Assembly: GCA_021323945.1 (NCBI GenBank)
Contig: JAJPKA010000020.1
Span: 682,001-746,000, forward strand
Source of the DNA: Pseudomonadota bacterium
GTDB lineage: Bacteria; Desulfobacterota; Binatia; Binatales; Binataceae
Length of the DNA: 64,000 nt
Direction of reading: 5' to 3'
Below are positions 13,046-18,760 of this stretch, piece after piece. The notes under the pieces are model-generated. The model was not told the origin of the DNA. It saw only the letters and a program-made list of their open reading frames with translations, and searched no databases. Position 1 is the stretch's first letter, and each line of letters opens with the position of its first letter. Made by a program: the position numbers and the translations under genes.

Positions 13046-14377
13046 CTAACCGTTAGTGACTGCAATGTTGTTGGAATTATCGCTTCCGTCGTGAAAAGGA
13101 TTGTCAACCACTATGGTAGCTTCGCGCGAGGCGCCCACGCCGACCATCGCCAATCCCACGCCGCAAAGTTCTTGGAGACGCTGGAGATAACGCCGGGCAT
13201 TCACCGGCAGATCGCTCAACGAGCGTGCGCTGCTAATAGACTCGCTCCAGCCTGGCAACGATTCGTAAACAGGCTTGACCTTGCCCAACAGGTGAGAGTC
13301 TGGGACCTGGTCCAGAGTCCGTCCGCGGATCTGGTAGGCAACGCAAATTTTTACCGGGTCGAGCCCCGTAAGCACGTCCAACTTGGTCAGCGCTATTCGC
13401 CACATACCGTTCAAACGAACTGCGTGACGAGTTAACACGGCATCGAACCATCCGATCCGTCGAGGGCGGCCGGTTGCGCTGCCGAATTCGTTGCCTTCCT
13501 CGCGCATCATATCGGCGAGCCGGCCGCTGATCTCGGTCGGAAACGGGCCACCACCGACGCGAGTTGCGTAGGCTTTGCTGATTCCGAGGACGCCGTCGAG
13601 GGAGTTGGGCGCTATCCCGCAACCGCTGAAAACTGCGCTCACTCCGCAATTCGAAGATGTGACGAATGGGTAAGTCCCGTGGTCAATATCGAGCATTATG
13701 CCGTGGGCTCCTTCGAACAGCACCCGTTTTCCGCTCGCGATGGCTTCCTGGAGGAACCTCGACGTATCGCAGACGTAGCGCAACAAACGACTGCGCACGG
13801 CTCGCATCTGGCTGACGAGCGGCGCAGCCGCGACGGGCTTCGCCTTTAAGACAGTTTTTAAATACGCGTTTTTGTCGCGAATGTTGCGCTGCAATTTCTG
13901 GGCAAATGCGTCAAAATCGGCCAGATCATCGAACCGCAGTCCAACTCGTGCCATCTTGTCTTCATATGCGGGCCCAATCCCGAAGCCGGTTGTCCCGATG
14001 GCGCTCTTGCCCAGCCGCGCTTCACGGGCGCGATCGATAGCGCGATGATAGGGCATAACCATGTGTGCTTCGCTACTCAACTTCAGTAGCTCGTCATCCT
14101 TTAGATGGCCGCGCCGCTTCAGCTCGGTAATCTCATCGAGCAAAGCGATCGGGTCAACCACCGTGCCATTGGCAATCACACAGATCTTGCCCTGATAAAG
14201 GGCACCAGCGGGCACTAACCGCAAAACAAATCTTTCGCCGTTAACGACCAGAGTATGCGCAGCGTTGTTACCGCCCTGAAAACGGACCACTATGTCCGCA
14301 TCGGCGGCCAGCAGGTCGACGATCTTGCCCTTGCCTTCGTCTCCCCATTGCGAACCTACGACTGCGAGGGTCTTCAT
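13046..14377 (-). CDS. purA: Adenylosuccinate synthetase
   Basis: GTP-dependent adenylosuccinate synthetase, the committed step from IMP to AMP; cytosolic. From the ATG at 14377 it is 443 residues, close to the usual 430. Key residues are present: GDEGKGK at 12-18 with catalytic Asp13, NNAAHT with His41, GTTGFGIGPAYEDK, and SSNCGVS further on. An in-frame TTG at 14389 would add four residues; the ATG fits the family N-terminus (MKTLAVVGSQWGDEG). Neither has a clear ribosome site. It lies 73 bp downstream of serA on the same strand, so it may be read from the same transcript as the serine genes. Confidence 0.96.
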   Translation of the reverse strand: MKTLAVVGSQWGDEGKGKIVDLLAADADIVVRFQGGNNAAHTLVVNGERFVLRLVPAGALYQGKICVIANGTVVDPIALLDEITELKRRGHLKDDELLKLSSEAHMVMPYHRAIDRAREARLGKSAIGTTGFGIGPAYEDKMARVGLRFDDLADFDAFAQKLQRNIRDKNAYLKTVLKAKPVAAAPLVSQMRAVRSRLLRYVCDTSRFLQEAIASGKRVLFEGAHGIMLDIDHGTYPFVTSSNCGVSAVFSGCGIAPNSLDGVLGISKAYATRVGGGPFPTEISGRLADMMREEGNEFGSATGRPRRIGWFDAVLTRHAVRLNGMWRIALTKLDVLTGLDPVKICVAYQIRGRTLDQVPDSHLLGKVKPVYESLPGWSESISSARSLSDLPVNARRYLQRLQELCGVGLAMVGVGASREATIVVDNPFHDGSDNSNNIAVTNG

Positions 14378-14450
14378 ATCGAGCTGCAAACGGTGTGAGG
14401 TGGCCGAAAGTAGGCTGGTAGATCCCTGCGGTTTCCAGGTTCCCGTGACT

Positions 14451-16046
14451 TCATAATTTGATCAGCATTGCCGACGTGATAGCGGGGATGGTCTTGAGGC
14501 TCTCCAGCACCTGGGTCGGGACCGGGCCGTCGACTTCCACCAAACTGAGAGCGGTTCCACCGATCCGATCGCGCCCCAGTTCCAGGCCAGCGATATTTAT
14601 TCCCGCTTGTCCGAGCAGAGTGCCAACTGCACCCACCACGCCCGGCACGTCGCGATTGTGCAGCATAAGAAAATAACCTTCGGGACTCGCCTCAATTGGG
14701 TATCCGTCAATTCGAATTAAACGCAGCGCACGGTTGCCGACGACCGAACCCGCAACCTCGTGAGTATCGCGGGCGGTTCGGACTGTGAGCGTTAGCACAT
14801 TGATATAGTCAGCAGTTTCACGCGAGCGCGTTTCCGCCACATTGATTCCTCGTTCGCGTGCGATGTACGGAGCATTGACAAGATTGAACTGCTGGTCGAG
14901 ATACCCGCTGAGCAGGCCCTTAAGAGCTGAAGCGATGATGGGTTCCGACTTTAAGCCTGCCGCCTCGCCGGCGAAACCAACTGCGATTTGGGTCGGAGGA
15001 TCCTCGATTAATTGCGAGACCAACCGCCCCAGCTTTTCTGCCAATCGCATATGAGGTCCAAGGGTTTCGAGTTCCTTGGGGCCGAGCGCCGGAATATTAA
15101 CCGAGTGACGAATCGTGCCCTCTGTGAGGAACTCGATGATCTGATTGGCGATATCGATGCCGACCTGTACCTGGGCCTCATCGGTGGCCGCACCGAGATG
15201 AGGCGTCGCGATCACGTTATCCAGCGTCAGCAATGGATGATTTGGGGGCGGTGGCTCATCGACAAACACGTCAAGAGCCGCACCTGCAATCCGCCCCGTC
15301 TTGAGCGCGGTATAGAGCGCGTCCTCGTCGATGATGCCACCGCGTGCACAATTAATCACCCGTGCGCCCGGTTTCATCATCGCGAAGGCTGAGGCGCCAA
15401 TTAGACCGCGGGTTTCATCGGTCAACGGTGTATGAACCGTAATGAAATCGGAGCGACGGAACAGCTCCTCGAGGCTGACCATTTGGACGCCAATGCGGGC
15501 TGCGGCATCGCTCGTTAAAATCGGATCGAATCCGATCACCTTCATCTTGAGGCCGAGCGCGCGGTCGGCGACAATCCGGCCAATGTTGCCCAACCCGATA
15601 ACGCCCAAGGTTTTGTTAAAGACCTCGCTTCCGGTGAACCTGCTGCGCTCCCACTTGCCCGCCCGGGTTGCAGCGTCGGCTGCGGGGATGTGCCGAGCCA
15701 TCGCCAGCATCATCGCAATAGTGTGCTCAGCGGTCGTGACACTATTACCTAGCGGGCTATTCATTACCACGATTCCGCGGCGGGTAGCCGCGTCGAGGTC
15801 GATGTTGTCAACCCCTACGCCGGCCCGGCCGATTACTTTGAGGGAAGACGCACGCTCGATAACTTCGCGTGTCACCTTGGTTGAACTGCGGATTAGCAGC
15901 GCATCATAGGGCGCAATGAGTTCCGCAAGTTCGCCTGGTCTAAGGCCTGTGTGGATATCACATTGAATGCGTGGGTCACGCTTGAGGATCTCGATGCCCT
16001 CTGGTGCCAGCGAATCACTTAAGAGAACCCGGAACTGCGCTGGCAT
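14451..16046 (-). CDS. serA: D-3-phosphoglycerate dehydrogenase
   Basis: The first enzyme of serine synthesis, oxidising 3-phosphoglycerate with NAD. At 531 residues it is the long form. It has a substrate-binding domain, a Rossmann domain with GLGNIG, the catalytic-region motifs NCARGGIIDEDAL and ATPHLGAAT, an ASB-type intervening domain, and a C-terminal ACT domain (LMLHNRDVPGVVGAVGTLL). The ACT domain implies allosteric serine inhibition, as in related enzymes. The start lies 5 bp after the stop of the class V aminotransferase upstream, so the two are almost certainly one operon. purA follows by 73 bp. Confidence 0.96.
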   Translation of the reverse strand: MPAQFRVLLSDSLAPEGIEILKRDPRIQCDIHTGLRPGELAELIAPYDALLIRSSTKVTREVIERASSLKVIGRAGVGVDNIDLDAATRRGIVVMNSPLGNSVTTAEHTIAMMLAMARHIPAADAATRAGKWERSRFTGSEVFNKTLGVIGLGNIGRIVADRALGLKMKVIGFDPILTSDAAARIGVQMVSLEELFRRSDFITVHTPLTDETRGLIGASAFAMMKPGARVINCARGGIIDEDALYTALKTGRIAGAALDVFVDEPPPPNHPLLTLDNVIATPHLGAATDEAQVQVGIDIANQIIEFLTEGTIRHSVNIPALGPKELETLGPHMRLAEKLGRLVSQLIEDPPTQIAVGFAGEAAGLKSEPIIASALKGLLSGYLDQQFNLVNAPYIARERGINVAETRSRETADYINVLTLTVRTARDTHEVAGSVVGNRALRLIRIDGYPIEASPEGYFLMLHNRDVPGVVGAVGTLLGQAGINIAGLELGRDRIGGTALSLVEVDGPVPTQVLESLKTIPAITSAMLIKL

Positions 16047-16051
16047 CGTGC

Positions 16052-17203
16052 TTAGATACCCTGACTAATTCGTCTTTGAACCGCTGCTACGCCAGCGCCG
16101 CACTCAAAGGCGTACCCGACACGGCCCAGTGCGATCTCGAGTGCGCTGACCGCCGTTAGCATGTCAAATGGGGAGAGATGCCCCATATGGCCGATGCGGA
16201 TTAATCGGCCCTTCATCCGATCCTGTCCGCCCTGAACCCAAACACCCAATTCGTCACGCATGTAGCGCACGATTTGGCCGCTATCGATATTTTTGGGCGC
16301 GAGGATTGCGGTCAGACCCGGTGCAGGATTTTCTGGCAGGATCTCGAGCCCAAGTGCTTGAGCCGCAGCGCGGGTTGCTTCGGCCATCAATAGCAGTCGG
16401 GCAAAAACCCGCGGCAGGGTCTCAGCGTGGATCAGTTCGAGTGCCTTGTGCAATCCAAACACGAGCGACACTGCTGGCGTATAAGCGGTCGTGTGCTCGT
16501 CGCGTTGGGATTTCAATTCGCGCAGCAGGTCAAAATAAAAGCGTCGACCCCGGCATTTACTTGCTTGCGCCAGCGCCCGCTCCGAGAGAGCGACCATTGC
16601 CAATCCGGGTGGCAGCATTAGCGCTTTTTGGCTCCCGGTGACCAGCGCATCCACCCCCCAAACGTCCATCTTTTGCTCGAAAACGCCGACTGACGTGATC
16701 CCGTCAACCACCAGAATCACGTCGTGCCGCCTCGTTACTTCACCGATCTCGGCGATCGGATGAAGTGCGCCGGTCGAAGTCTCACTGGCTTGCACAAACA
16801 CCGCCTTGGCTTGCGGATTGGCGGTTAGGGCGTCTTCGACCTGCTCTGCGCGGACACTGCGGCCCCATTCGACTCGAACCTGATGCGCTGTTGCCCCGTG
16901 AGCTCTGATAAGTTGGCCCCAGCGTTCGCCGAACTTCCCGCCGTCGACGTAGACCGCGTGCTCATCCGGGCTCAGCAGGTTGGCGACAACGGCTTCCATT
17001 GCACCGGTACCGCTCGATGCCAGCAGGATGACTTCCTGTCGAGTACCGAACAGGGGTTGCAGTTGCTGCCGGACCGAGTCGAGCACTGCGGCGAAATGCG
17101 GGGTGCGGTGGTGGATCACCGGCCGCGCCATCTCCAGCAGAACCTCGGGCGGAACTGGTGCAGGTCCCGGCGTAAACAAATAGGGATGACGATTTCTCTT
17201 CAC
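16052..17203 (-). CDS. Class V aminotransferase, probable serine-pathway transaminase
   Basis: A PLP-dependent aminotransferase of 383 residues in the alanine-glyoxylate/serine-pyruvate/phosphoserine group. The PLP lysine is Lys193 in TGSQKALMLPPG, preceded by the VDGITSVG strand with the cofactor Asp. The N-terminal FTPGPAPVPPEV is typical. Its placement 5 bp before serA suggests it acts as phosphoserine aminotransferase, as found for similar pairs in archaea and deltaproteobacteria; a glyoxylate role is possible. GTG start with only a weak AGGCC upstream. A strong hairpin with eight U ends 21 nt before this start (see 17225-17264), which suggests regulated read-through. Confidence 0.88.
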   Translation of the reverse strand: MKRNRHPYLFTPGPAPVPPEVLLEMARPVIHHRTPHFAAVLDSVRQQLQPLFGTRQEVILLASSGTGAMEAVVANLLSPDEHAVYVDGGKFGERWGQLIRAHGATAHQVRVEWGRSVRAEQVEDALTANPQAKAVFVQASETSTGALHPIAEIGEVTRRHDVILVVDGITSVGVFEQKMDVWGVDALVTGSQKALMLPPGLAMVALSERALAQASKCRGRRFYFDLLRELKSQRDEHTTAYTPAVSLVFGLHKALELIHAETLPRVFARLLLMAEATRAAAQALGLEILPENPAPGLTAILAPKNIDSGQIVRYMRDELGVWVQGGQDRMKGRLIRIGHMGHLSPFDMLTAVSALEIALGRVGYAFECGAGVAAVQRRISQGI

Positions 17204-17224
17204 GAAAGGCCTGGTATCACAGTC

Positions 17225-17264
17225 AAAAAAAAGCCTGGTGCCGGCATATTGCCGGGCGCCAGAC
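17225..17264 (-). terminator. Leader terminator/attenuator before the aminotransferase-serA operon
   Basis: On the minus strand, an inverted repeat at 17233-17264 (arms GCCGGCACCAGGC and GTCTGGCGCCCGGC around a five-base loop, small internal mismatch) is followed directly by eight U at 17232-17225. That is the form of an intrinsic terminator. No minus-strand gene ends here: the nearest, arsC, stops about 400 bp away beyond plus-strand rpmB. The structure sits in the 5' leader of the gene starting at 17203. The word ACCAGGC recurs just downstream and, as GACCAGGC, upstream near 17381, which could allow alternative pairing. Attenuation is inference. Confidence 0.65.
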
Positions 17265-17426
17265 CACTATGCATTGTCGAGAGGCCCAAGACCAGCTAGC
17301 CATAGTCATTATCGGAGCCATTGTTGTCAGTCAAGCTGGTAGGGGGCCTTTAACCGCCATCTAATGCTGGCTAATTTGAAGCCTGGTCTGTAGCATTTCT
17401 CGAAGCTAGCGAGGAAAAACAAAATA

Positions 17427-17615
17427 ATGAGGCACTGTTCGATTTGCGGCAAGCGTCCGTCCGTTGGCAACAATGTGAGTCATGCGAACAACAAGACCAA
17501 ACGGCGCTGGAAGCCCAACCTGCAGGAAGTGCGAGCTGCCACCGGCGGCGGCATCAAACGGATGCTGGTGTGCACCCGATGTATCAGGAGTGGACGCATT
17601 CAGAAACGCGCCTAA
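17427..17615 (+). CDS. rpmB: 50S ribosomal protein L28
   Basis: Large-subunit ribosomal protein L28, 62 residues, typical length. The N-terminus [20 protein letters not shown] and the later KRRWKPNLQ match the family. Two CxxC pairs, CSIC near residue 4 and CTRC near residue 51, mark the zinc-binding four-cysteine form of L28. The ribosome site is a GAGG about 12 nt before the ATG. It is divergent from the aminotransferase-serA operon and convergent with the ArsC-like gene. It stands alone, without rpmG. Confidence 0.96.
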
Positions 17616-17642
17616 ACTATCTCGCCAGTAATCGAGTCTCGG

Positions 17643-17667
17643 ACCGTCAAGGGCTCACTTTGACGGT
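17643..17667. terminator. Hairpin between convergent rpmB and ArsC-like genes
   Basis: A perfect 8-bp inverted repeat, ACCGTCAA and TTGACGGT, with a nine-base loop lies between the rpmB stop and the ArsC-like stop and touches the latter. On the plus strand it is followed after some bases by CTTTT, on the minus side by no U run. It could serve both convergent transcripts, but it is not a strong intrinsic terminator. Confidence 0.4.
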
Positions 17668-18017
17668 TAGAACAGCTTTTCAAGCAAGTTCGCAGGACGT
17701 GCGATAATGGCCCGGTTACCACGAATTACGATCGGGCGCTGCATCAGTTCCGGGTGCTCGAGCAAGAGGGAAATAACGGCTTCTTTATTGGTATAATCGG
17801 CTGGATTTAACTTGAGCTCCTCGAAGCGCTTGTCTTTTCGCACCAAATCTCCGACGGGACTCTCGAGCATGCTGATGATTCGTTCGAGATCTTCGAACGA
17901 CGGAGGAGTTTTGAGGTATTCGATTGTCTCAAATGGCACGCCGCGCTCGCTCAGCAAGGCCAGAGCGCCACGCGAATGACTGCAGGCCGGGTTATGATAA
18001 AGCGTTATACGGTCCAT
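17667..18017 (-). CDS. ArsC-family (glutaredoxin-type) reductase-like protein
   Basis: A 116-residue thioredoxin-fold protein of the ArsC/Spx/YffB group. The N-terminus MDRITLYHNPACSHSRG carries Cys12 in a CxxS motif, and the LMQRPIVIRG segment holds the conserved Arg of glutaredoxin-dependent arsenate reductases. The frame is open to 18128, but the ATG at 18017 has GAGGAG 8 nt upstream. No arsB, acr3 or arsR is nearby, so an arsenic role rests on family resemblance alone. It is divergent from the secreted-protein gene at 18062 with a 44-bp gap. Confidence 0.85.
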   Translation of the reverse strand: MDRITLYHNPACSHSRGALALLSERGVPFETIEYLKTPPSFEDLERIISMLESPVGDLVRKDKRFEELKLNPADYTNKEAVISLLLEHPELMQRPIVIRGNRAIIARPANLLEKLF

Positions 18018-18061
18018 CTCCGCTACTCCTCGCGAATTCATATGATTGTTCAGGATAGAGC

Positions 18062-18760
18062 ATGACGCACCGTTCTGCGAGTTTAAGCAGCCCCAAATTA
18101 CGCGGTTTGGCTCAGTCCAAGCCTTCAAGGTTCGCGATTCTAACCATGATCGTGGTCATGGGTGTAGTCGGATTGGGCGCGGTCGGGGCAGGTGCGGCCA
18201 GCGTTAGTGGGGTCCTGACCAGCTATCAAAGTCCCACACCAATCGCCAGCCGCGATCTGCATTTCCAGAATGTCATCACGGGTGACGTATACCTATCGCC
18301 CACGCACTCTGACGGCTCATTCCGGGCCAGTCTGCCTCCCGGCAAATATCAGCTACGGACTGAGTCCGGTGCAATACTGGTGAAAACGATAGTTGTGGAC
18401 CGGGCTGACATCGACCTAGGACACATCAGTGAACTCGCGCCGTTTGCGCCAGCGCGCTTGTGGCAGGCGCAGACGATTGCGCCGAGTCATCTGACCTCTC
18501 CCGCGCCTTCTACTGCATATGTGAAAACCTCAGATACTACGCCATTGCCGGCTACTGCTGGAGCTATGCCCAAGCCCACCTTCGATTGGACCAAGCCTCC
18601 GCCCGAGACTGTGGCCACACAAGGTCCGAACAGCGTCACGGGAATAGCCACCGCTCCCTTGCCGGCCTCGCATTTGCCATCCGCCGCCCCCGCGTTCGCC
18701 GGGGGCGCCAGAGTGCCGTACTCGACAAGCCCAGCGGCTGGCGGGCAGGCGTCTCCTTAG
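18062..18760 (+). CDS. Hypothetical secreted/membrane-anchored protein
   Basis: A 232-residue protein with an N-terminal hydrophobic segment at about 24-45, probably an uncleaved anchor or signal peptide ending AGAA. A small beta-rich domain at about 46-120 (GVLTSYQSPTPIASRDLHF and a PPGKYQL turn) resembles carboxypeptidase-regulatory or prealbumin-like folds. The C-terminal half is rich in Pro, Ala, Ser and Thr and looks disordered. AGGA lies 6 nt before the ATG. The stop overlaps that of the convergent CoA-transferase by 3 bp. No specific function can be given. Confidence 0.65.
   Translation: MTHRSASLSSPKLRGLAQSKPSRFAILTMIVVMGVVGLGAVGAGAASVSGVLTSYQSPTPIASRDLHFQNVITGDVYLSPTHSDGSFRASLPPGKYQLRTESGAILVKTIVVDRADIDLGHISELAPFAPARLWQAQTIAPSHLTSPAPSTAYVKTSDTTPLPATAGAMPKPTFDWTKPPPETVATQGPNSVTGIATAPLPASHLPSAAPAFAGGARVPYSTSPAAGGQASP

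Follow-up and report, generated by a model that had tools for sequence, protein, structure and literature searches.

A conserved hairpin and U8 tract as a putative, aptamer-less attenuator ahead of the aminotransferase-serA-purA operon of Binataceae

The stretch of DNA analysed here, hereafter the window, comprises 64,000 nucleotides from a member of the family Binataceae (class Binatia). On its minus strand, an operon of a class-V aminotransferase gene, serA and purA is preceded by a short leader with a promoter, a hairpin and a run of eight U. Throughout the text, G denotes genomes, L loci or leaders, f1 to f17 families and g genera, with f1 being the Binataceae.

16052 to 17203, minus strand: class-V aminotransferase (PF00266), operon gene 1, GTG start
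14451 to 16046, minus strand: serA, phosphoglycerate dehydrogenase (TIGR01327 over cut-off)
13046 to 14389, minus strand: purA, adenylosuccinate synthase
17427 to 17615, plus strand: rpmB, ribosomal protein L28, divergent neighbour
17667 to 18128, minus strand: arsC-like gene, upstream
17329 to 17334, minus strand: -35 element TTGACT (TTGAC upstream of the terminator in 31 of 31 element-bearing leaders)
17306 to 17311, minus strand: -10 element TAATGA, with a 17 nt spacer from the -35
17273 to 17301, minus strand: 5' leader segment, weakly conserved and with no identifiable aptamer in the information profile
17266 to 17272, minus strand: conserved 5' flank of the terminator, GCATAGT (consensus CAUCGGGG just ahead of UCUGG)
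17232 to 17265, minus strand: putative terminator hairpin, lower stem GGUCUGG/CCAGGCU, upper stem variable
17225 to 17232, minus strand: U8 tract (eight T then G in 31 of 31 leaders, T8G being the search pattern used)

The hairpin, GGTCTGGCGCCCGGCAATATGCCGGCACCAGGC, starts at 17265 on the minus strand and, together with its tail, has a folding energy of -22.2 kcal/mol. Between the last base of the U-tract (17232-17225) and the GTG at 17203 lie 21 nt, exactly as the original prediction had described it. A GC-rich hairpin running directly into a U-tract is the hallmark of an intrinsic terminator, and this arrangement at 17265-17225 would by default end transcription at about 17225. Seven runs of at least seven T occur on the two strands of the window, and only one of them, in the serA-operon leader, adjoins a hairpin at least as stable as -11 kcal/mol. 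In 100 dinucleotide shuffles, the mean number of hairpin-T sites is 0.34 at -11 kcal/mol and 0.01 at -20 kcal/mol. Canonical intrinsic terminators seem to be rare in these 64 kb, with one convincing hairpin-U terminator at the chosen criteria (T>=7, -11 kcal/mol). A simple terminator scanner made no call at the serA-operon leader, an internal loop in the stem being the probable reason. The fold of the entire 17204-17426 interval is not unusual either (z -0.65), as its 17302-17426 part precedes the predicted transcription start.

This start is placed by a conserved promoter. The TTGAC box stands 96-108 nt ahead of the T8 in all 31 leaders, and most of them have a TA-rich -10 element 17 nt past the TTGAC hexamer. 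Transcription in the window is accordingly predicted to begin at 17299-17301, upstream of 17225, a point on which the idea of attenuation had been made to depend. The first codon follows the U8 after only 21 nt, which leaves no room for a second promoter, and the operon mRNA must therefore presumably cross the terminator.

The arsC-like gene (17667-18128) is on the same strand, and the hairpin might be read as its gene-end terminator. This is highly improbable, as the gene lies 400 nt away, the oppositely oriented rpmB and the promoter stand in between, and, judged by eye, the upstream sequence differs among relatives while the hairpin stays with the operon. By and large, the earlier statement that no upstream minus-strand gene needs the terminator holds; the arsC-like gene, whose end is at 17667, has by eye a hairpin without a U-tract after its stop. 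This hairpin is a perfect CCGTCAA/TTGACGG hairpin at 17630-17667 of the minus strand, directly past the arsC-like stop and between arsC (minus) and rpmB (plus).

Comparison of leaders within the family offers a greater level of detail about the element. The aminotransferase gene is present in 39 of the 41 family genomes (E<=1e-100), which gave 39 leaders for comparison; the two uncounted genomes hold no more than a gene fragment (G040) or a brief match at the edge of a contig (G010). Hairpin and T8G occupy the same position in 31 of the 39 leaders, spread over 12 genera. Eight leaders (L018-L023, L045 and L046, from genera g3, g4, g8, g14 and g16), some of them early-branching, are without the element, and in one of these (L022) nothing was found on either strand. 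In the 31-row alignment of the hairpin 94.5% of the cells are paired, and double-sided changes occur in 5 of 13 pairs, all of them in the upper stem. Of five covariation measures, four exceed every one of 500 shuffles or every one except a single shuffle; the fifth, which covers further pair types, is not above the shuffles (70 of 500). Aligning the leaders of relatives, as had been suggested, thus brought out compensatory changes in the hairpin, and the proposed architecture of attenuation is borne out by the conservation, the covariation and the promoter upstream.

Across the 31 leaders, the CUGG:CCAG lower stem scarcely changes. Genus-weighted information is concentrated in the promoter, some seven bases ahead of the hairpin (consensus UCGGGG immediately before UCUGG), the hairpin itself and the U8; the 5' segment and the sequence past the U-tract carry little. 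Among the leaders, the CTGG-to-U8 distance ranges between 28 and 32, which argues against the fixed half-sites of a DNA operator, and this candidate was rejected.

A covariance model of the leader finds 31 loci at E<=2.6e-9 in 148 genomes of the class, all of them in the Binataceae and at the serA operon. The next-best match in these genomes (1.9e-5) covers the terminator part only, indicating that the element is single-copy and confined to this locus. The eight element-less family leaders reach at best an E of 1.8 with this model (L018, at the expected place). At 1364-1444 of L018, a GC-rich hairpin followed by TTTGTTC stands at the expected site and may be a decayed copy. A second collection of 80 loci yielded two matches at E<1e-10, L191 and L192, both apparently from the window's family, L192 having the score of G039 and probably being the same genome; the next match is at 0.011. 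The pattern CTGG-N-CCAGGCTTTTTT is matched in 23 of the 41 family genomes, in 21 of them at the serA operon, and off the operon at three places (G008, G009 and G014). Neither pattern nor model searches gave a convincing copy of the element elsewhere in the genomes.

A strong promoter, a stable hairpin, a U8 tail, a single copy and conservation within one clade would also suit a transcript of ~75 nt that ends in U8 and acts in trans as a small RNA, with the operon living off leakage. We regard this as quite improbable, since the conservation is limited to the terminator and no conserved unpaired seed is present upstream of it.

The word ACCAGGC, repeated around the hairpin, had been thought capable of forming alternative structures. 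In the window it occurs on the minus strand at 17387-17381, 17239-17233 and 17215-17209, the first copy being upstream of the promoter and another being found only in the window. Among the other 30 leaders it occurs once in 18 and is absent from 12, and in the stretch examined the recurring copy is that of the terminator arm only. The repeats are incidental.

Two of the kinds of attenuation that the original prediction had listed fared less well than attenuation itself. A scan with Rfam 15 gave no match to a T-box or any other cis-regulator at the window leader, in keeping with the earlier failure to recognise a riboswitch or T-box there, and a known riboswitch thereby drops out. Leader translation is not supported: the family leaders share no conserved ORF, and the Ser/Trp-rich ORF at the start site in the window (MASWSWAS...) is not conserved. 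Two leaders (L009 and L033) contain no ORF of 5 or more codons, and the ORFs found elsewhere are unlike each other.

A new, compact metabolite riboswitch would be a further option. Its aptamer would consist of the 5' segment, a P1-like hairpin and the GCAU-GGGGUCUGGCG strand, with a closing helix GGGACG/CGNUCC that excludes the terminator. Both strands of this helix are locally conserved, and many leaders of genera g5, g6, g9, g10, g13, g15 and g17 allow it to be drawn. However, the helix, which was drawn by eye, displays no covariation and pairs at 68.0%, compared with 68.7% for shuffled partners. In most leaders, the arm gains nothing from its own 5' segment over a foreign one, and generic sequestering of the 5' arm of the terminator (ensemble pairing of 0.63 vs 0.585 in shuffles) does not rise above the shuffles. 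As the 5' segment also carries little information, we consider such a riboswitch unlikely. A long helix near 17350-17275 was rejected as well, its 5' arm being located in or upstream of the promoter. Across the family leaders, no conserved pair of mutually exclusive terminator and antiterminator helices and no upstream aptamer was found. With the 5'-end helix, the sequestering of the arm and the leader peptide all failing as switches, what is left is recognition of the hairpin and its flank, or a fixed damper.

The sister families provide a context that was absent from the original prediction: at this very place, most of them carry a ZTP riboswitch (pfl, RF01750). The riboswitch scores over the Rfam cut-off in 63 of the 148 class genomes and, by position, precedes this operon in 58 of the 96 leaders fetched from other families; a separate Rfam scan of fetched loci recovered four of these aptamers. 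Of these 58 ZTP-bearing leaders, 49 have a T-run with a hairpin at least as stable as -10 kcal/mol, and a terminator resembling that of the window, CCAGGC/UCAGGC-U, is the usual ending. No ZTP aptamer over the cut-off occurs in the 41 genomes of Binataceae or in the 16 genomes of f5. The two Binataceae genomes listed in that scan score 24.6 and 26.6 bits, under the cut-off of 39, and the window leader does not attain the gathering score of the Rfam covariance model. With a profile of the 5' half of the ZTP riboswitch (ACUGGCG and the P2 hairpin), none of the family leaders has a match at its terminator; the whole-aptamer profile finds nothing convincing in these leaders.

The window leader resembles the ZTP riboswitch in operon and position, in a terminator that comes right after a promoter-proximal leader, and, less distinctly, in a stem base that combines CUGG with (C/U)CAGG and a U-tract. 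It differs in that window and family are devoid of the ACUGGCG...GGGAG...CGCCUGGGC aptamer in Rfam and profile searches, and in that only ~35 nt of leader precede the window's terminator. Terminators of the ZTP type read, for example, GCCUGGGCCUC...GAGGUCCAGGC-U, and those of the window's family GUCUGGCG...CACCAGGC-U8; against the ZTP 3' part with its stem base CCUGG/CCAGG, they present a similar 3' arm at weak scores. A profile of the ZTP 3' part, one row of which (L105) includes a piece of coding sequence, places the Binataceae terminators first in family DNA, weakly (best E 0.0034) and mostly through the 3' arm and U-tract only. Across the second collection of 80 loci, 60 hairpin-T6 sites were counted, and the stem-base words CTGG/CAGG[CT] occur at none of them; these loci include members of the window's family (L191-L197), the terminators of L191 and L192 having been skipped as repeats.

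A second aptamer-less version of the leader is seen in f5. On inspection by eye, a CCUGG hairpin is retained in nearly all of the 16 f5 leaders, in most cases together with a T-run, at ~35-40 nt from the promoter. The GCCUGG-type leaders without a ZTP aptamer are L027, L029, L054, L058, L060, L064, L072, L076, L081 and L085, and further ones are L097, L103, L104, L106 and L109.

Trees of the aminotransferase and SerA place the Binataceae among ZTP-bearing families, with f2, f16 and f17, all of which have the ZTP riboswitch, on the other side; the trees are quick ones with several open forks, and f2, f16 and f17 were set as outgroup in one of them. A clade of Binataceae and f5, which would need one aptamer loss, is neither established nor rejected by the tree (p 0.43). 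The simplest account of these data would be a ZTP ancestor whose aptamer was lost in the Binataceae, the terminator being kept or rebuilt. We are less sure that the Binataceae terminator descends from the ZTP terminator. A late gain unrelated to the latter is possible, because 8 of the 39 family leaders, including early-branching ones, are without the element.

Attenuation is the best reading of the available sequences, and the leader is in our view a real, conserved and lineage-specific attenuator; the terminator and its conservation are evident from the sequences, with termination, readthrough and signal as the predicted components. More specifically, we give a probability of about 0.55 to a transcription attenuator of the aminotransferase-serA-purA operon that has lost its aptamer and whose readthrough is set via the conserved 5' strand and flank. 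Polymerase would start near 17300, traverse ~35 nt of poorly conserved leader and meet the hairpin and U8, so that the operon would be expressed only through readthrough of this terminator. In the ZTP riboswitch, the ON state is one in which the terminator is blocked (PMC10085676; PMC2864571). An ancestral ZTP riboswitch in the same position would likewise have blocked such a terminator when ON. In the Binataceae, the terminator with its fixed CUGG:CCAG lower stem would have been kept or rebuilt while the aptamer disappeared, and readthrough would most likely be set while the 3' arm has yet to emerge, by something that acts on the conserved 5' strand and its flank (CAUCGGGGUCUGGCG). Our leading guess is that this agent targets the hairpin itself, and we conjecture either a protein acting in trans or a hairpin-bound ligand. 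The signal is probably tied to the supply of serine, one-carbon units or purines.

In a tentative version of this history, the terminator of the ZTP riboswitch has been rewired, with a new regulator reading the hairpin itself in the Binataceae and perhaps, separately, over the aptamer-less GCCUGG terminator of f5. A rather less likely alternative to regulated readthrough is a constitutive damper, a leftover of the ZTP riboswitch that senses nothing and has a fixed low readthrough. Such a damper would agree with the failure to find an aptamer, an antiterminator or a leader peptide in the leaders and with the complete loss of the element from 8 of 39 family leaders. On the other hand, 12 genera preserve the lower stem and flank in sequence to a degree that pairing does not demand, and a strong fixed terminator ahead of a biosynthetic operon would be costly.

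Attenuation with readthrough set at the hairpin finds partial parallels in known systems. Antiterminator sites of the LicT/SacY type are controlled by a protein and overlap terminators. The window similarly has RNA of constrained sequence in or beside the terminator and no metabolite aptamer, but its leader displayed no alternative hairpin in our tests, and a binding protein is hypothetical. The serC RNA element of alpha-proteobacteria (RF00517) is a short leader before serC-serA for which no ligand was found and a protein is suspected (PMC1273637). It shares with the window a small leader directly past the promoter and a last hairpin near the start of a phosphoserine-aminotransferase/serA operon (PMC1273637); its final hairpin, however, covers the ribosome-binding site, whereas that of the window would be a transcription terminator. 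The window leader has no Rfam match to RF00517. Among the papers listed on ZTP riboswitches and terminators, Binatota, riboswitches of Binatia, and serC and pfl, taken largely from outside the subscription journals and including passages from PMC1273637, PMC7266159, PMC2864571 and PMC10085676, we found no report of the element.

One bacterial class thus presents, ahead of the same operon, a full riboswitch, an aptamer-less attenuator or neither, which makes this a traceable case. If the hairpin answers to a factor, it would be an expression platform that has outlived its aptamer; if it answers to none, riboswitch decay would be in progress.

Two further observations concern the ZTP riboswitches of the other families. 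In f9, the aptamer is present at the serA operon, and a hairpin with T-run went undetected in six of six leaders (L048, L050, L051, L053, L061 and L125); the output may therefore not be termination in this family. In other families, the ZTP riboswitch also adjoins glyA (SHMT), as in L290 (G030:C2:22003-22093) and L160 (G089:C11:51379-51462), and these two copies belong to the 63 genomes counted above.
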